Of a DNA stretch of 25,259 bases, positions 5,577 through 17,769 are shown in pieces. The stretch is from a virus. The position numbers were made by a program, and so were the translations under genes. The stretch lies in the IMG/VR virus record IMGVR_UViG_3300033553_000830, positions 1 through 25,259 of that record; one strand, given 5' to 3'. The notes under the pieces are model-generated. The model saw only the letters and a list, made by a program, of their open reading frames with translations, ran no database searches and had not been told where the DNA came from. Position 1 is the stretch's first letter. Each line of letters starts with the position of its first letter.

Positions 5577-5801
5577 CTATACTGCCTGACTATATGTCAA
5601 TGATAACTCGACATTTATAGTTGGCGTTTCTGTTCCAGAATAACCAATGGGCCTCTCAATGGTCACGTACTCAAGTGTTGGTTGAACGTCTATTGTTGGA
5701 ACTTCATAATTCGTGTAATCAGGACGTTCCATTTCTTCCCACGGTTTTGATTCTTTTGCTTTTTTCTTTCCTAATAAAACAAACTGAATGAGTCTATTCA
5801 T
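5577..5801 (-). CDS. Short EVPTIE-repeat tail protein (74 aa)
   Basis: Small protein of 74 aa. Residues 1-20 form a hydrophobic then lysine-rich leader, and the rest consists of the same repeat found at the C-terminus of the preceding gene. One 25-residue unit runs 33-57 (beginning EVPTIDVQ) and a partial unit runs 58-74 (beginning ETPTINVE). Residues 22-32 look like the tail of a previous unit (compare EEMERPDYTNY with IEMERLYGHSPE upstream). The ATG at 5801 has AGGGAGGTATTGCA. It lies 12 nt after the larger repeat protein, suggesting duplication and splitting of a fibre segment. It could be a small fibre subunit or a detached remnant. No family is recognised. Confidence 0.6.
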   Translation of the reverse strand: MNRLIQFVLLGKKKAKESKPWEEMERPDYTNYEVPTIDVQPTLEYVTIERPIGYSGTETPTINVELSLTYSQAV

Positions 5802-5813
5802 TGCAATACCTCC

Positions 5814-7196
5814 CTACACAGGGTCGCCATTCAAGTCGGTTAAAGTTAGACCTATTTCAACTTCAATGGTTGGAACTTCTTCTGGGCTGTGCCCATACAA
5901 TCTTTCCATTTCTATATACTCAACGCCTAACTGAACTTCTATTGTTGGAACTTCATCGGGTGTATAACCTACTGGTGGTTCACCTTCCAATAAAGCTGTA
6001 AAACTGTTAAGCAACCGTCTGCAAGTATCTGAACCATAAAGTCTTAACCTGCCTAATGTTTCATCGTAAGCTAAATCAATGTCAAGCGAACTATCAACCG
6101 AATTGTGATTTATGGTAATAATATTACCCGCTGAAGTCATACTACTTATTGTCAATGGATTCCCACTTACTGTTTCGGTCATGGTCCAGCCTGATTCGCT
6201 TCCTGCAACGTTTATCGGAGGCAGGTTAATTTCAATCTCCGATTCTGTTTCCGATATACGTCTTACTTCAACTAAGGCAGGAATCGGTATACTGATATGA
6301 CAATATTCCAAACCTTCTAATATAGTTTCAATAGTCGGAACTTCAGTTGGTGAATAAGTATCAATATATTCAATCGGCGTGTATGTCAATCCTAACTGAA
6401 CTTCTATTGTTGGAACTTCAGGATATAAACTCATGCCCGCCCAATTTCTTGTAGTCACTGTCATGTGTGCGTTGTCTGAAGCATCTCTACCGAGTACCCC
6501 AATTCGGAAGTCGTTTGTTCTGAATAAGGCTATGTCTGTCAAGCCTGAAGGTAATTGAGTTATCTCTTGTTCTGTTTCCCACAGATATGTCGTGCCATCG
6601 CTTTGCAGACAATAATTCCGGTAGTAGGCTACTCCACTTTTCAGGTAAGCGACTATCAAACCCTGGTCTGATGTATGATCTGCTTGTGCTGGAAGCCATC
6701 CACGTATGGTGCATATTCTTCCGACGCCTGTTGCAAGTTCCAGTGATGTCCCGTCCCAATACTGAGCTGTTAGGCTTCCGCTGTTTTGTTTAAAAACCCA
6801 AGGATATTCATCAGCCACGAAGTTAAACCTTTTGCTCACCTGGTCCCGTTCCCAGTAGCCGTTGAACTCAATGGCGATGTCTGACGCTGATCCAGCTGTG
6901 AATTCTGCGTCCCATGGGACCGTTTCGTCATACGGTAAGTCTTTGCTTATCACATAAGAAACGCCATCCTCGATATAGATGGCGTATAGCTTGTTCGGCT
7001 CTGCTTCAGCTGTCTCCCTTTTGGCGGTTACATCAATCCGGTCAATGTCCGCTTTGTTGTGGATTGTGTAAACGGTGAAAAGTTCGTTCCATCGGCTGTT
7101 ATATACAAATATTTTCATGTGAGGGTTTGCATTTTCATAAAGGGTTTGGTGTGCTTTCTCGATGCGTGTTTTTAATTCTGTTGGTATTGATCGCAT
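5814..7196 (-). CDS. Tail-tip / fibre protein with C-terminal 25-aa EVPTIE repeats
   Basis: Protein of 460 aa. Residues 1-90 look like a virion-attachment domain (helical start, then strands around IDRIDVTAKRE and LYAIYIEDGVSYVI). Residues about 90-255 are beta-rich with WXXG-like strands suggestive of a propeller or sandwich. Four repeat units follow: 260-284, 285-about 297, 415-439 and 440-460, each starting EVPTIE. The two blocks are separated by a beta-rich insert at about 300-405. Unit length is 25 residues (75 bp), and two of the units share a 30-bp identical DNA stretch (5926-5955 and 6391-6420). The base composition shifts to A+T-rich from about 6470 downward, so the C-terminal half may have been acquired by exchange. 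ATG 7196 has AAAGGGGGCGG. It probably acts in adsorption. Confidence 0.6.
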   Translation of the reverse strand: MRSIPTELKTRIEKAHQTLYENANPHMKIFVYNSRWNELFTVYTIHNKADIDRIDVTAKRETAEAEPNKLYAIYIEDGVSYVISKDLPYDETVPWDAEFTAGSASDIAIEFNGYWERDQVSKRFNFVADEYPWVFKQNSGSLTAQYWDGTSLELATGVGRICTIRGWLPAQADHTSDQGLIVAYLKSGVAYYRNYCLQSDGTTYLWETEQEITQLPSGLTDIALFRTNDFRIGVLGRDASDNAHMTVTTRNWAGMSLYPEVPTIEVQLGLTYTPIEYIDTYSPTEVPTIETILEGLEYCHISIPIPALVEVRRISETESEIEINLPPINVAGSESGWTMTETVSGNPLTISSMTSAGNIITINHNSVDSSLDIDLAYDETLGRLRLYGSDTCRRLLNSFTALLEGEPPVGYTPDEVPTIEVQLGVEYIEMERLYGHSPEEVPTIEVEIGLTLTDLNGDPV

Positions 7197-9733: not shown

Positions 9734-9954
9734 CTAAAAAACATCAAAATGAGCTTGTGTTGCTTCAATAATTTGTTCTTCATCACCGTCAGAATCGTTC
9801 CGGTTGTTATATTCAATAATAAAATCGATGATCATACCAAAGGTTAGAATTTCAAAATCATACAGGGTGAGGCCTCTTTCCAACGCTGCCGCCATCAGAG
9901 TTTCTGTTGTTATGTCAGAGGCCCCTGACCCTCCTGAATCAGTCTTTTTTTTTT
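9734..9954 (-). CDS. Tail assembly chaperone T domain, expressed only by frameshift (gpGT)
   Basis: The +1 frame relative to gpG continues past the A10 tract: Lys-Lys, a Gly/Ser linker (TDSGGSGASDITTETL), then a helical domain (MAAALERGLTLYDFEILTFG, about 53 aa from the Met) ending at TAG 9734-9736. The only internal ATG (9893-9895) has no ribosome site nearby, so entry by frameshift from gpG is the sensible model. This is the T part of gpGT chaperones, made at low frequency in long-tailed phages. The fusion would be 181 aa (+1 shift) or 182 aa (-2 shift). It lies 18 nt before the tape measure start. See the frameshift entry for the signal. Confidence 0.82.
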
Positions 9955-9976
9955 GAACTGTGCAAGCTTGAAGTAA
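9914..9976 (-). promoter_or_regulatory. Frameshift signal of the tail chaperone: A10 tract + hairpin
   Basis: The 0-frame of gpG runs TCA AAA AAA AAA GAC TGA. The T frame is open only after a TAA at 9979-9977, and gpG stops at 9941-9939, so slippage must occur in the 38-nt window, which contains the A10 run (9954-9945). The needed shift is +1 (or -2). Downstream a GTCAG / CTGAC stem (9929-9925 with 9918-9914) lies 15 nt after the run and could promote pausing. Transcriptional slippage on A10, dropping one A, would give the same product. Confidence 0.75.
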
Positions 9977-10280
9977 TTAGATCCTGAATTTCCGGTATGA
10001 TCTCCATCAAAGGAAACTCATCAAATGAATCAAGCCATGTCATTGGATCTGGTATGGATGGTTCCGCTGTTTTTGCAAGCGTCCACACAAGGTTATAAAA
10101 CACCTCAAGATCAACCATTTCAATGTTTTTAACTTCCTGTGTTTTTTCATCGAATGCTTCCATGATTTTCAGAATGTCTTTTATTGCATCACGTCCGAAT
10201 TGTGCTTTATACCTTAATAAAAAAGCACCAGTTGATTTGAATCTAATCTGGCGCCCATCAATGGTTAACGTTTTTTCCAT
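9939..10280 (-). CDS. Tail assembly chaperone gpG-like
   Basis: Short product of 113 aa between the tail tube and tape measure genes, the standard position of gpG-type chaperones that coat the tape measure before tube polymerisation. The protein begins with a beta-hairpin-like stretch (TLTIDGRQIRFKSTGAFLLRY, residues about 4-24). It then has helices with LEVFYNLVWTLAKTAEP (about 59-75) and ends Ser-Ser-Lys-Lys-Lys-Asp at the A10 slip site. The ATG at 10280 has AAGGGAGCTG upstream. A fraction of ribosomes should continue into the T domain. Lack of catalytic motifs and the neighbour pattern make the call firm even without sequence identity. Confidence 0.85.
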   Translation of the reverse strand: MEKTLTIDGRQIRFKSTGAFLLRYKAQFGRDAIKDILKIMEAFDEKTQEVKNIEMVDLEVFYNLVWTLAKTAEPSIPDPMTWLDSFDEFPLMEIIPEIQDLITSSLHSSKKKD

Positions 10281-12348: not shown

Positions 12349-12627
12349 TTATTCCGTCTTGGTTACTGTTACTGTGTACTGAGTTAAGCTTCCAACATCA
12401 ACTACAACCACATTTTCACCAGCCGCCCACGTGGCTGCTTCGCCACTTACATGAGGGCTAGCATCTACTGTGATTGTTACGTCCATTTCCGTGTCGGTCG
12501 CCGTAGCTGTGATTGCGTTTGTGGCATTAGTTGTTGCCGCTGTATACTCGTACACTTCCGGATCAAACTCCGGTACTAGAGTTAATGATCCGATAGTAAG
12601 CGACGCTAGGCTACTATCGGCTACGAC
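12349..12627 (-). CDS. Ig-like (cadherin-like beta-sandwich) domain, -1 frameshift extension of the capsid protein
   Basis: This 92-codon ORF is in the -1 frame of the MCP gene and has no good start of its own; its first in-frame GTG is at 12555 with only a distant GGAG. Read from the slip, it begins VVADSSLASLTIGSLTLV, then FDPEVYEYTA, and ends YTVTVTKTE, which closely matches the cadherin-like beta-sandwich / bacterial Ig-like repeat (PF12733-type: LxxLTLSxGxLxPxFxPxxxxY ... YTVTVT). Such domains are known on the outside of phage heads and tails, where they often come from frameshifted or fused structural genes and aid weak surface attachment. The fusion product would be 403 MCP residues + 92 = 495 aa. 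An alternative, a separate small protein from GTG 12555, would lose the first strand of the domain. Confidence 0.88.
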   Translation of the reverse strand, partial: VVADSSLASLTIGSLTLVPEFDPEVYEYTAATTNATNAITATATDTEMDVTITVDASPHVSGEAATWAAGENVVVVDVGSLTQYTVTVTKTE

Positions 12628-12633
12628 TTTTTT
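12590..12633 (-). promoter_or_regulatory. -1 programmed ribosomal frameshift signal (A AAA AAG + stem-loop)
   Basis: In the MCP frame the end reads GCA AAA AAG TCG TAG. The heptamer A AAA AAG (12633-12627) is the most efficient bacterial -1 slippery sequence known. Six nucleotides downstream a perfect 9-bp stem (12620-12612 with 12598-12590, CCGATAGTA/TACTATCGG, loop 13 nt) starts right after the 0-frame TAG. A second small stem (CCGGA/TCCGG, 12573-12569 with 12562-12558) lies further on. Slippery site, spacer and stem all have the classical arrangement. Confidence 0.9.
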
Positions 12634-13835
12634 GCCAGCGTTACCAGTGAGTTTTTGTCTACCACTTTACCGTCAACACTCATGACAGCTTTTGTCAGAT
12701 AATCTTCAGTGTCCCAGTCCTGCTTACGCTGGATGCCCATGTCGTATACGGTGTTCAGTGCATAATCTTCGAAATTGAAGATGAAGGCAAAGACTTTTCC
12801 GTCTGTCAGGTCTGTTGCAAAACTGTCGATGTAGTCGCAAAGGACAACATTTCTGCCAAGCAGCATGCGCTCAGGTTTTCCGCCCAAGCCGTAGTTCACC
12901 CGTGCAATAGGATGGCCATCAGTGTCAGTCATGCCGATGAATCCCATGAAGGTTTTCTTTGTCATACACCAAAGAGCGCCGGGTTCATACGCTGCAGGCA
13001 GAGCTGCTTCTGCTTCGACCAATGTGTTATAGCTAAGAGAAACATATTGAAGTGCTTGCCCGGTTACAGGTGTTTCTGCCAAGATACCTTTTGGTGAGGT
13101 TGTACCGTCGGCTGTGGAAACAATCGCGGTTTCAATAGCTTTCACCATCGCTTCAGTTACTTGGCGAACGAAAGCAGATTCAAATGCGCTTACTGCCAGT
13201 GCGCCAACTTCTGCAGACATGCTGATTTCACAACGGAGTTTAAAGCGTCCGAAAGTGATTGTGCCGGTGGTTTTCTTTTGACGGTCAGAGCTTGCACTTT
13301 CAGAAACCCATGTTGCAACAGGTTTCACGGACGAGGTAGGAATAACCACGCCGGATGCAAACTGTGTGCGCGTGATCAGTGGAAGGATCACGCCGACTGT
13401 TTCGAGTTTTTCCACAATACGGTTGATCACTGTGGTCGGTATAGCACTTCCAACATCAGTGGTCAGGGTGTTTGCGTCTACCCGAAGTTCTTCAGGGATA
13501 GGTGTACCACGTGTCACAAACTGCTGGAATGCTTTCCGGTATTCCATTTCGTCTGCATCAGCTGTACGCTGTTGAGTTGCGGCCATTGGTGCTGTTACCA
13601 TGCCAGGAGTGGCGGCATTAACAATCTGTGTGCGCTGGGATTCGCCTTCTCCGCCCTCGTCCTCTTCCAACTCGTCGATCATGGCCTGAACGCTTCGCAG
13701 TTCTTCGTTCACATTGTCGAGTTCAGTGTTGATGCTGCGTAGTTCTTCGATGCTCTCTGACTTCTCTGATTGTCTTACCAGTTCGGCTTTACGTTCGTTT
13801 TTAGCTTTCAACATTTTCATGAGTTTATTCTTCAT
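12621..13835 (-). CDS. Major capsid protein, HK97 fold
   Basis: Phage head shell protein of 404 aa. Residues about 1-70 are a charged coiled-coil delta (scaffold) domain (RQSEKSESIEELRSINTEL and INTELDNVNEELRSVQAMI stretches), followed by a linker rich in Gly/Thr/Ala where the phage protease would cut (near 80-110). The mature HK97 core follows: AIPTTVINRIVEKL at about 142-155, an E-loop region, KLRCEISMSAEV near 203, and LWCMTKKTFMGFIGM around 295-309. The ATG at 13835 has AAAGGAGCGATG. It comes two bases after the protease stop, in the standard order. Its last codons form the slip site, and it is followed by a terminator, consistent with high expression. Confidence 0.95.
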   Translation of the reverse strand: MKNKLMKMLKAKNERKAELVRQSEKSESIEELRSINTELDNVNEELRSVQAMIDELEEDEGGEGESQRTQIVNAATPGMVTAPMAATQQRTADADEMEYRKAFQQFVTRGTPIPEELRVDANTLTTDVGSAIPTTVINRIVEKLETVGVILPLITRTQFASGVVIPTSSVKPVATWVSESASSDRQKKTTGTITFGRFKLRCEISMSAEVGALAVSAFESAFVRQVTEAMVKAIETAIVSTADGTTSPKGILAETPVTGQALQYVSLSYNTLVEAEAALPAAYEPGALWCMTKKTFMGFIGMTDTDGHPIARVNYGLGGKPERMLLGRNVVLCDYIDSFATDLTDGKVFAFIFNFEDYALNTVYDMGIQRKQDWDTEDYLTKAVMSVDGKVVDKNSLVTLAKKS

Positions 13836-13837
13836 TT

Positions 13838-14509
13838 TTACATCGCTCCTTTGATTTTGGCTCTCAGTTTATAAAGTTCCAGCTCGTTCTTTTCGCTATC
13901 CAGCGTGGATCTGGCACTATCCAGCGCCATTTTGTCGGAGTTGTCCAACTCCCCATCCCCTCGAGCTTGTATGTTAGTCCCCGGATATGCGGGACTCCAT
14001 AACGCAGATATTTCGCCGATTTTACCAAGTTTGTAAATCTCCCTTGTCGGCATTTTTTTATCAAGTTCCAGCCATTTTTCTTCTTTGATCGTGAAAGCGT
14101 ATGACATCCCGGACACGTCACCCCGTTTAATAGCGGAGTACAGGCTTTTAGCTTCTGCATTGTTTTCAGCGTCCAGCTCTGCTCTGAAATGCAATCCTTT
14201 GTCATCCGGGGTCAATGTCATGGTGGATGATCCGTTGTTTCTCCTGGACCTTGCCAGAGGTATCTTATTTCGGTTATGGTGTATAAAAAGAGGAACGTCT
14301 GTCAGGTCTGCCCCGTCAAGCGCTCCACGTTTAACCACTTCATGAAACCAATCTCCGCCAATTTTTACTCGCTGTTCGTACACAATGGCATATCCTTCGA
14401 TGATGTATCCTTCATCTTCCGTTGGTTCAACTGCCCGAAGTTCAACAATTTCATTGGACCTGGAAAACTGTATTGTCTTTTTATCTGGCAAAATGAGTTT
14501 ATCCTTCAT
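13838..14509 (-). CDS. Prohead protease, HK97 gp4 family (U35)
   Basis: Serine protease of 223 aa that removes capsid delta domains after prohead assembly. Visible motifs are VPLFIHHNR (residues 72-80, catalytic His77 or His78), then GDVSGMSYAF (130-139, catalytic Ser133 or Ser136), and EISALWSPAYPGT (167-179), which matches the E-x-S-x(3)-x-PAY block of the family. The C-terminal 40 residues are charged and helical. ATG 14509 overlaps the portal stop and has GGAGGGATCAGAGG upstream. Three bases separate its stop from the MCP start. Length is typical. Confidence 0.93.
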   Translation of the reverse strand: MKDKLILPDKKTIQFSRSNEIVELRAVEPTEDEGYIIEGYAIVYEQRVKIGGDWFHEVVKRGALDGADLTDVPLFIHHNRNKIPLARSRRNNGSSTMTLTPDDKGLHFRAELDAENNAEAKSLYSAIKRGDVSGMSYAFTIKEEKWLELDKKMPTREIYKLGKIGEISALWSPAYPGTNIQARGDGELDNSDKMALDSARSTLDSEKNELELYKLRAKIKGAM

Positions 14510-15755
14510 CCTCTGATCCCTCCTTCACTCCTGCTTTATTTTTCTGGTATTCGTCTATCACGTCAATATTCATGTAGTTAAGGGACTGTAAGCGCCTATT
14601 CCCTTCCGGGAACGGTTCGATGCCAAACATTTCATTGATCTCATTAAGCTGCATGATCCCTGTCTCTTTGGCCAGGCTTGCCAGCTCCAACTTATCCTTG
14701 GTGGACATGTACCGAACTTTGCTGTAATAGCATTTCACCCGATGTCCGACGTCCTTCTCCCGGTCAGAAAAAAGAGCAGCGCTCATGGCCTGCTCAAACT
14801 GGATAATGAAGTCCTCGATAGTTGTCTGGTAAAATGCGCTGTGTTGTTCGCCGGTATAATCTCCGCTCAGTATGGCTGCTGATACACCGTACCGTTCATG
14901 GATCACTGCCTTCAGAAAATTAAGCGCCGTTTCTGGTATGTCAGCCGCCCTGATATTGACAGGTGTAAACTCACCCGCCAAATCAGTGGCTACCATGCCA
15001 GATTTGCTGACAGCTATGTGGCTTTCAAAATCTTCCCGGATTTTATTCAGCTTCTGCTGGTCTGCTAGTGTCTTGGCGTGGTACACCCCTTTGATTTGCA
15101 AACTCGCTTCAATCGATTTCGGCAGTCCTTGGATGGTTTTGTCCAGTGCGTCAATGGTACGGGTGATTTCATAATCATTCGCCTGTCCGTTATCGTCACC
15201 GCCACCCACAATGGTGTTAACTCCACGACGCCATTTCAAGTGAATCAATTCACTGTATGGCAGGATATAGCTTGATCCGTCAGCAAACTCAAACTTCACT
15301 TCCCACACTTGTCCGGTATGTTGGCCGATGTATATGGCTTGTGGGTTAAGCGGGTATAGAGCGGTGTATCTTTTTACTGACAAACCATTCGACAGAGTGA
15401 CCACTTCATACATTGGATAGATAAAAGCGTTCCTGTGTTTGCGCCTCAACCATTCAACATTCGACATAAAATCACTCGTTGTCTGCAGCGGGTTTGGTTG
15501 AAACCTGAAAAGTCTCGTTATATCGTCGTTCTCCACTTTTATGGAGTTTTTTCTTTCGGTAACGCTTTTGACTTCGATCTTTGACATCTCGGATGCTACC
15601 CGGTCGATGGCGTTGTTGATAAAATCTGACAAGTAAATGTTCTTTCCGAAGTCTGTAAAAATTGGCTGCGAGTTAGTGAACCAGGAGCGATAAAGGGCTG
15701 TCCTATTCACCGGTAATACAGTTTTTAAATAATCCATTAATCCGATTGTCTCCAC
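14499..15755 (-). CDS. Portal protein, HK97 family
   Basis: Portal of 418 aa that forms the dodecameric channel at one capsid vertex. Blocks typical of HK97-type portals are a TLSNGLSVKRYTALYPL strand near 120-136, then PYSELIHLKWRRG around 164-176, LQIKGVYHAKTLADQQ near 222-237, GMVATDLAGEFTPVNI around 258-273, and AAILSGDYTGEQHSAFYQTTIEDF near 296-319 (summarised by positions). The C-terminal part is helical, with MSTKDKLELASLAKETGIM. Start is GTG 15755; ATG 15737 is a real alternative. It follows the terminase after 3 nt. Confidence 0.94.
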   Translation of the reverse strand: METIGLMDYLKTVLPVNRTALYRSWFTNSQPIFTDFGKNIYLSDFINNAIDRVASEMSKIEVKSVTERKNSIKVENDDITRLFRFQPNPLQTTSDFMSNVEWLRRKHRNAFIYPMYEVVTLSNGLSVKRYTALYPLNPQAIYIGQHTGQVWEVKFEFADGSSYILPYSELIHLKWRRGVNTIVGGGDDNGQANDYEITRTIDALDKTIQGLPKSIEASLQIKGVYHAKTLADQQKLNKIREDFESHIAVSKSGMVATDLAGEFTPVNIRAADIPETALNFLKAVIHERYGVSAAILSGDYTGEQHSAFYQTTIEDFIIQFEQAMSAALFSDREKDVGHRVKCYYSKVRYMSTKDKLELASLAKETGIMQLNEINEMFGIEPFPEGNRRLQSLNYMNIDVIDEYQKNKAGVKEGSEDEG

Positions 15756-15758
15756 CCC

Positions 15759-17462
15759 CTACCCTATAAGGTCCATGTACTCTGATCTGTGCCATTCAAG
15801 TGTGGCGTACGCAATGATTTTGCTCGCTGTCCCGTCTATCCGTTTTGTTGGGTGCATCTTCGTTGGCATAATCCGCCCGAGTTTGTCTATCTTGATGCCC
15901 GTGTTACTGTAACACCAGAAACACACTGGGTTATTGTCATAGTTCACCAGTTTGTCCCGCATGTCAGCTTCCAAGGTCCGCATTGGATTGTTTAAGACTT
16001 TCGACTCCTGCGGTATGTTGATTGCCACTTTGTTTTTGCCGTTCTCGTCAAATATTTCATTGAAACGATTTGTATAGTCCTTTGCAAAACGGTTGTCATA
16101 TCCTGACTTGCATGGTTTCAGATCATATTCTTTCAGCAACTCAAACTGCCATTCAGCTATCAGTGATGTTTCAACTGCATTTCCTCCCACGATGGTCAGA
16201 TGCCCGGAACGTTCCCAGGCACGATAGTCTACATCGTCCGGACTGTTTTCCAGTTTGCTTTCTGGGATCCAGTACCTGGTATGCAGGTATGTTTTCCGGT
16301 CATTCGGTCGCTTCAGCAATATGGTTGAAGCACAAAGGTCTATTGTCTCTGCAAAGTCATTCCCGGAAATATAAAAACCTCCGCTGAAGTCTTTCAGATC
16401 GAAGGTTTCAATGTTGATGATGTCTGTTTGCTGTAACCATGCTGCAGCGTTTGATTGTTTCAGGTTGAAATCTTTCGCCAGGGCAAATGCTCTTGTGGAG
16501 CTGTTTGTTTTGGCTTCAGCAATCAGTCCGTCAAGGTAACTCCATTCTTTCGATACGCCCAGATTAGGGTTAGCCTTTACCCAGCTGGTGCGGTCCTGCC
16601 AGATCTCCGTTTCACTGTCCTGTGTGTATAGCCAGATCAGCCAGCGAGGTCTTTCCGCTTCACCTTTTAGTACTTGCCTTGCTTCCACCATTGTTTTATC
16701 CAAGTGGCCGTCTTGGGTGAATCCTTCGGTGGTGATCTCAATCATCAGCGGTTCTTTTTTCGATGACATGGACTGCTTCAGCGGCATGATCAAGCCATCG
16801 TCTTTCATTTCGTGGGTTTCATCTGCAATGACCACATCAAGGTTCCGGCCTTCCTTGCCGCCGGTCCTGGATGACAGTTTCTTAATCTTTGCTTTGTTCT
16901 GCCGGCTGAACTTTCCCTTTTTCTTTTTCTGTTTGGGGTTTCCCATGAAAATCCCTTTTATGTTTTTCCGGCTTACCTTTTCAAGTTTCCGGCTTTCTTC
17001 CCTCATGTTTGAAATCTCATCGAACAGTATGCCAGCCTGCTCATAGTCATTTGATGCACACATGATATTTGTTCCAGCATTGCCACAAAAGAACTCTGCA
17101 AGGGCCAGCGCTGAACACCAGCTGCTTTTACCGTTTTTGCGGCCGATAACCAGTAACAGTTCCGTGAAGCGTCGCCTTTGTTCTCCCTCTATTTCAACGT
17201 AAAAACTATACAGCGCTTCCATGAGTGCTTTCTGCCATAGTTCGAGCAGGAATGGCTTTCCGGCAAAAGGGCTTATGCTGTGTTTGCATTCAGATTCGAT
17301 GAAGGTGATCCGCTTGTGGGCTTCTGTGGTGTCGAATACATAGAGTTGGTTTTTTATGTCTGCAATCAGGATGTCCAACATGGCCATCAGTTCCCGGCCT
17401 ACTATGATTTCTCCTGATTTGCATTTTTCATGGTATTCAACCAGGTAACTACTCATACTCAT
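15759..17462 (-). CDS. terL: Terminase large subunit
   Basis: DNA-packaging motor, 567 aa from ATG 17462. Walker A is GRKNGKSS at 107-114 (a Lys/Arg-rich variant usual in this Terminase_1 family) and Walker B is VVIADETHE at 210-218. The Lys-rich insert between them (about 178-195) is notable. A C-terminal nuclease region with ISGNDFAETIDLCAS near 360-374 and later Asp-rich segments (GYDNRFAKDY) suits the RNase-H-like fold that cuts concatemers. I prefer ATG 17462 over the earlier start at 17486 because GAGGAAGG lies about 11 nt upstream; ATG 17456 is also possible. It overlaps the P27-like gene. It is probably the last gene of the packaging module. Confidence 0.96.
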   Translation of the reverse strand: MSMSSYLVEYHEKCKSGEIIVGRELMAMLDILIADIKNQLYVFDTTEAHKRITFIESECKHSISPFAGKPFLLELWQKALMEALYSFYVEIEGEQRRRFTELLLVIGRKNGKSSWCSALALAEFFCGNAGTNIMCASNDYEQAGILFDEISNMREESRKLEKVSRKNIKGIFMGNPKQKKKKGKFSRQNKAKIKKLSSRTGGKEGRNLDVVIADETHEMKDDGLIMPLKQSMSSKKEPLMIEITTEGFTQDGHLDKTMVEARQVLKGEAERPRWLIWLYTQDSETEIWQDRTSWVKANPNLGVSKEWSYLDGLIAEAKTNSSTRAFALAKDFNLKQSNAAAWLQQTDIINIETFDLKDFSGGFYISGNDFAETIDLCASTILLKRPNDRKTYLHTRYWIPESKLENSPDDVDYRAWERSGHLTIVGGNAVETSLIAEWQFELLKEYDLKPCKSGYDNRFAKDYTNRFNEIFDENGKNKVAINIPQESKVLNNPMRTLEADMRDKLVNYDNNPVCFWCYSNTGIKIDKLGRIMPTKMHPTKRIDGTASKIIAYATLEWHRSEYMDLIG

Positions 17463-17769
17463 CAAGCCCGTCGCCTTCCTCGTCATCGATGTTCAGATGT
17501 TTGCATAGCTTATCAATAATGTTCGTCAGGGATGCTGCGTGTCGGTTGATCTCGTTTGACACCGGCAATACCTTCTGGACAGTGTTGTCATCAGGATGGA
17601 CTTTCACCAGGCCGGTTTCCATTGCCTGGGCGTTCAACTTTTTGAGGTAGATGGTTTCATGAGCTGCCTGATTGATCAGCGCATCAAGCACGTTCAGTTT
17701 TGATTCGTCCACTCCCTCAAATTGTGCTTTCAGGCGGTCAATCTCGTTCTTTATATCCTGACTTTTCAT
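17449..17769 (-). CDS. P27-like small terminase subunit (candidate)
   Basis: Protein of 106 aa. A helical region with LDALINQAAHETIYLKKLNAQAM (about 29-48 onward), a short GLVKVHPDDNTVQKVLPV segment and a second helix (NEINRHAASLTNIIDKLC) are the pattern of the P27-family small terminase, which precedes TerL in many siphoviruses. It ends in an acidic tail. I chose ATG 17769, not the upstream in-frame codon at 17811, because GTAGGTGAC lies upstream. The gene overlaps TerL by 14 nt. A second protein with an HTH further upstream is also small-terminase-like, so the functional split is unresolved. Confidence 0.7.
   Translation of the reverse strand: MKSQDIKNEIDRLKAQFEGVDESKLNVLDALINQAAHETIYLKKLNAQAMETGLVKVHPDDNTVQKVLPVSNEINRHAASLTNIIDKLCKHLNIDDEEGDGLDEYE

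Follow-up and report, generated by a model that had tools for sequence, protein, structure and literature searches.

A putative -1 frameshift signal at the end of a phage capsid gene, predicted to add a cadherin-like domain to a minor form of the capsid protein

The stretch of viral DNA analysed here, referred to below as the window, is 25,259 nucleotides long and carries a tailed-prophage structural module, all of it on the minus strand. The terminase, portal, protease and major capsid genes are followed by genes for connectors, tail tube and tape measure, and the features of interest are collected in Table 1. The capsid protein combines a match to PF05065 with the HK97 fold; HK97-fold capsids and encapsulins head the list of about 300 PDB chains that match its AlphaFold model, and the capsid fusion described below matches the major head protein family PHROG 10 (7.7e-60). 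Elsewhere in the module, two neighbouring ORFs of the tail region (5577-7196, minus strand) repeat a motif of the type 'PTIEVQLGLTY', in the manner of fibre-like repeats.

Table 1. Positions in the window of the head genes and of the elements at the end of the capsid gene.
Feature	Position	Strand	Evidence
Terminase	15759-17486	minus	
Portal	14499-15755	minus	
Protease	13838-14509	minus	
Major capsid protein, HK97 fold, 404 aa + TAG (0-frame product)	12621..13835	minus	PF05065, 3e-35
Slippery heptamer A_AAA_AAG, 0-frame X_XXY_YYZ register	12633..12627	minus	
6-nt spacer TCGTAG, holding the 0-frame stop TAG (12623..12621)	12626..12621	minus	
Putative stimulatory hairpin, perfect 9-bp stem, 13-nt loop	12590..12620	minus	Fold; pairing across 7 sequences
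Stem arms CCGATAGTA and TACTATCGG	12620..12612 and 12598..12590	minus	
-1 frame extension, 92 codons, stop TAA (12351..12349)	12352..12627	minus	
PF12733 cadherin-like (Ig-like) beta-sandwich, extension residues 9-90	12358..12603	minus	E 2.4e-6

The 0 frame of the capsid gene ends with CTG GCA AAA AAG TCG TAG. An earlier note on this DNA had claimed that this end contains a -1 slippery heptamer and, 6 nt beyond it, a perfect 9-bp stem, and both are present: the heptamer lies in the 0-frame X_XXY_YYZ register, and the stem falls within the distance of about 5-9 nt at which a downstream stimulatory structure would lie. When the window hairpin was compared with 2000 synonymous recodings of the same stretch, P was ~0.007 for the minimum free energy and ~0.008 for the length of the stem. 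Across seven aligned sequences the stem cells are paired in 96.8% of cases, compared with 13-52% when the partner is moved by 1-3 columns. Some observations count against a frameshift. The per-sequence synonymous P values in the family that joins A_AAA_AAR to the cadherin-like domain are just 0.007-0.09, and the stem shows little compensatory change, with both sides altered in one pair, because the arms also encode conserved V-D-S-S and T-I-G residues. In addition, no Shine-Dalgarno-like stimulator was seen upstream of the window slip site, and inspection by eye revealed no conserved pairing between the loop and downstream sequence of the kind that would form a pseudoknot. The sole tRNA-Lys detected in the host genome by an Rfam tRNA search and ARAGORN has the anticodon UUU, in an assembly that is 75% complete and may thus also encode tRNA-Lys(CUU). 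In E. coli, a tRNA-Lys with the UUU anticodon slips readily on AAG.

Upstream, the -1 frame is shut by a TAA at 12669..12667, and from there it contains no ATG, GTG or TTG until a GTG at 12555, which falls within the cadherin-like domain. The extension is therefore an overlapping -1 ORF that lacks a start of its own, and it is conserved. Its 92 codons, together with the 403 residues read before the shift, give the 495-aa fusion that the earlier note had calculated, with the predicted junction peptide LAKKVVADSSLASL. The note had also described the extension as a cadherin-like or Ig-like beta-sandwich and had suggested a PF12733 search. This search returned 28.3 bits, above the Pfam gathering cut-off of 24.2, and positions 3-88/89 of the model, effectively its full length, are covered. 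An AlphaFold model of the extension is a nine-strand beta-sandwich (pLDDT 77), for which the best match among solved structures is 8yk1, a chain of a bacterial multidomain glycosidase (Foldseek E 3.5e-4, TMq 0.77). Among homologues of the extension, which share 54-63% protein identity and have frames open over their full length, dN/dS is 0.05-0.34, indicating purifying selection. A search of annotated phages (INPHARED) with the extension gave no match.

We retrieved 109 loci with relatives of the capsid gene from IMG/VR and GTDB. The majority stop at the same point and have no extension. The layout of the window recurs in seven more viral contigs (L145, L154, L159, L160, L166, L245 and L161, the last being the same as L021), each with A_AAA_AAA GCG TAG, a hairpin and a homologous -1 extension, 94-100 aa long in the six that were translated. 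With the window included, A_AAA_AAA/G is kept in 8/8 members of the capsid family that carry the cadherin-like extension, and in the seven relatives the -1 frame has no ATG, GTG or TTG from its upstream stop to the domain. Lys-Lys is present within the last nine residues of 50 of 97 nonredundant capsid relatives, and in three of these 50 (L003, L021 and L093) it is encoded by A_AAA_AAR. All three with the heptamer, and none of the 47 without it, continue in a -1 extension that is at least 40 codons long and has no ATG (Fisher P=5e-5, window excluded). L093 is a distant capsid relative (46% identity); at L093:2290-2345 it has A_AAA_AAA/A_AAA_AAC, then a 7-bp hairpin across the stop (TCGGAGT/ACTCCGA), and its -1 extension is 50 aa long and rich in Lys and Arg.

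A broader survey took in 1188 ORFs of the fetched loci and scored each for an A_AAA_AAR slippery site close to its 3' end and for a -1 ORF of 60 codons or more that has no start. Such an ORF accompanies 11 of 22 ORFs with the heptamer and 55 of the 1166 others (P=3e-9). Three of the 11 are capsid genes (L003, L021 and L123, the last being the window's own locus); the others look like the tail assembly chaperone gene, where frameshifting is known, and so provide a positive control. We count this recurrence of A-run -1 shifts in the chaperone gene of relatives in favor of a frameshift. In the window, the 3' end of the chaperone gene (9734-10280, minus strand) is an A10 run (TCAAAAAAAAAAGACTGA), and a continuation homologous to the T domain lies in the +1 (= -2) frame; L024, L027, L029, L038 and L070 need a -1 shift at this point. 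The frame in the window would be due to a -2 shift, to slippage during transcription or to an error in the homopolymer.

What follows the slip site is not always the same domain. L003, with a capsid identity of 68%, has A_AAA_AAA GCT TAG and then, in the -1 frame, CHB_HEX_C_1 (PF13290, 8e-23), which is non-homologous to the cadherin-like domain of the window. L155 and L163 have the heptamers A_AAA_AAA and A_AAA_AAC, respectively, followed by a Rho_N domain in -1. The slip site is therefore shared by these relatives, and the attached module varies. A Rho_N/SAP-like ORF behind the capsid gene is preceded by a slippery A run in L155, L163, L073 and L100 and has its own TAATG start in L048 and L060; this downstream ORF seems to be expressed either fused or as a separate protein.

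It was also of interest to examine the cadherin-like domain in other settings, and a profile scan located it in 74 viral loci. In-frame fusions account for 48 nonredundant loci, and the carriers that were checked are HK97-type capsid proteins (L116, L117, L119, L120 and L184), a tail tube (L169) and another virion structural protein. L184 and L169 lie ~2 kb apart in the same prophage region of one bacterial genome (G166), so that capsid and tail tube both carry the domain in frame. Among the 74 loci, every out-of-frame copy whose carrier could be identified is in the -1 frame; L230 and L233, where the match sits in a separate downstream gene, were left out of this set. The carriers belong to several capsid families (PHROG 10, 544, 422) and to two tail-tube families, and the junctions are of several types: A_AAA_AAR..TAG, A_AAC_CCT_TAA (L110, L115, L225, L226, L271), shifty-stop-like (L252, L260) and GGGGGAATGA/TAA. 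A_AAC_CCT_TAA, a second putative -1 site found ~20-30 nt around the carrier stop, ends a different capsid lineage, and in most of its loci the domain begins with codons that form a hairpin. The junction GGGGGAATGA occurs in L217, L232 and L259, with GGGGGAATAA in L111, and spans all three capsid families; possibly it travels along with the domain. In L217, L232 and L259 an ATG in the -1 frame overlaps the carrier stop, and its presence in three of the four loci of this type suggests coupling or a shift on the G run. At L227:1960-2020 and L228:370-430 the capsid stop lies within a near-perfect 13-bp hairpin; the domain is in -1, and neither junction has a canonical slippery heptamer.

The in-frame and out-of-frame copies of this one domain provide a comparative test. 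When the folding energy at the start of the domain was compared with that of synonymous recodings, the median z was -1.9 for the 22 loci with the domain out of frame and -0.2 for the 45 with it in frame. The two sets differ in hairpin z with P=3e-5 (Mann-Whitney) and the stems are longer out of frame with P=5e-4, values that are somewhat optimistic since the loci are partly related and not statistically independent. This difference indicates a link between the hairpin and the need to shift frame. The hairpin arms vary between unrelated capsid lineages (GCGAACCTGTCT/AGATAGGTTCGC in L271, TAACGTCCCTGTC/GATAGGGACGTTA in L227), which suggests that hairpins of different lineages were selected independently.

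The conserved slip site and hairpin, the lack of a start codon, the purifying selection and the exact association of slip site and extension together give the -1 frameshift proposed by the earlier note strong comparative support, and very probably the capsid gene ends in a programmed -1 ribosomal frameshift that yields a 495-aa minor form with a cadherin-like domain. The majority of ribosomes would terminate at the TAG and release the 404-aa capsid protein. Others would be stalled at A_AAA_AAG by the hairpin 6 nt downstream, tRNA-Lys(UUU) would re-pair one base back, and this fraction would continue in the -1 frame, appending the 92-aa beta-sandwich of Ig type. The minor form would then probably co-assemble at a low ratio with the domain projecting from the capsid, where it would probably bind glycans of the host surface or the environment weakly. 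The efficiency of the shift, the co-assembly and presence in virions, the display on the surface and the binding role are steps that we infer; we place the fusion in virions, displayed on the outside, because of the in-frame homologues and phages already described. The earlier statement that the fusion 'decorates the capsid' is likewise an extrapolation, one that the in-frame capsid and tail-tube fusions of the same domain support.

If the extension were instead a separate small protein, made by reinitiation after the TAG (translational coupling) and binding the capsid by itself, a slippery heptamer would not be needed, yet the slip site is strictly conserved; moreover no ATG, GTG or TTG precedes the domain in the -1 frame of the window or of the seven relatives from its family. 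Coupling is used or possible in the other capsid families in which an ATG overlaps the stop (L217, L232, L259), and some relatives have Rho_N-type ORFs that begin with TAATG. For the window, we regard such a separate protein as unlikely. Readthrough of the TAG was considered and rejected, the next 0-frame TAG being four codons further.

The homopolymer in which the signal sits, and the frequency with which this domain is fused in frame to virion proteins, might suggest that the A run was sequenced or assembled wrongly and conceals one in-frame 495-aa capsid protein. This explanation is nearly excluded: seven independent contigs keep both the out-of-frame state and the TAG, the frame relation is identical in the window (A6G) and its relatives (A7), and out-of-frame copies of the domain are enriched in hairpins. 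RNA polymerase is known to slip on long A runs, and the A7 of the relatives would allow the fusion to arise by transcriptional rather than ribosomal slippage. The run in the window is just A6 followed by G, which is short for polymerase slippage, and the hairpin spacing and the 0-frame codon register suit the ribosome, so that we consider a transcriptional origin very improbable. Finally, most capsid relatives lack the extension, as they might if it were a pseudogene remnant of a decaying in-frame fusion; this idea is already contradicted by conservation, given the dN/dS values, the protein identity and the full-length open frames of the family, and we assign it a negligible probability.

The window adds a case, clearly supported and phylogenetically conserved, in which frameshifting would control display on a phage head. 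A wider proposal, less certain than the window case itself, is that the domain acts as a portable out-of-frame display cassette. Tentatively, the domain would have been placed repeatedly in -1 behind different shift sites (A_AAA_AAR..TAG, A_AAC_CCT_TAA and shifty stops) in unrelated capsid and tail-tube families, with independently selected hairpin-forming first codons and a tuned copy number, and the module (cadherin-like, CHB_HEX_C_1 or Rho_N) would be exchangeable at one conserved slip site. Such exchangeable domains make the purpose of a low-copy decorated capsid subunit directly testable. Because ORF callers end the capsid gene at its TAG, the domain escapes them, and decorations of this kind are probably under-annotated in clostridial phages.

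Frameshifts at the ends of structural genes are known from several phages, two of which the earlier note had cited as precedents. T7 gene 10A/10B does make a longer minor capsid form by a -1 shift, as the note stated, but its extension is not Ig-like (PMC5009743) and its signal differs. Listeria phage PSA, also a phage of Gram-positive bacteria, does recode the ends of structural genes, but in the +1 direction, at proline codons (PMC5009743); in Listeria A118 and A500 the coat gene shift is -1 (PMC5009743), and Listeria phages too are among those that gain Ig-like extensions in this way. Mycobacteriophages LeBron, Wildcat and Bxb1 have an Ig-like domain common to capsid and tail, comparable to L184 and L169, but the passages on them in PMC3029335 describe no frameshift, so that the domain would be on every subunit. 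The MTP-TpeX protein of lactococcal 936 phages also arises by a frameshift, which adds a putative carbohydrate-binding module to the tail-tube protein, but it differs in its +1 shifty stop and tail location (PMC4759559). The closer precedents, in place of T7 or PSA, are T3 and Lactobacillus phage A2, in which frameshift-added Ig-like domains on coat proteins are established (PMC5009743): as that source summarizes Fraser et al. 2006, a -1 shift near the 3' end of a major virion protein gene gives a minority of the subunits an Ig-like domain at the C-terminus. A literature search for a cadherin-like (PF12733) capsid domain added by frameshift found no description. A capsid frameshift with an Ig-like extension is thus already known, and the window is a further example, with PF12733 as the added domain; compared with T3 and A2, the window has this domain behind A_AAA_AAR and a hairpin formed by the domain's own first codons, and its relatives have CHB_HEX_C_1 or Rho_N behind the slip site instead.
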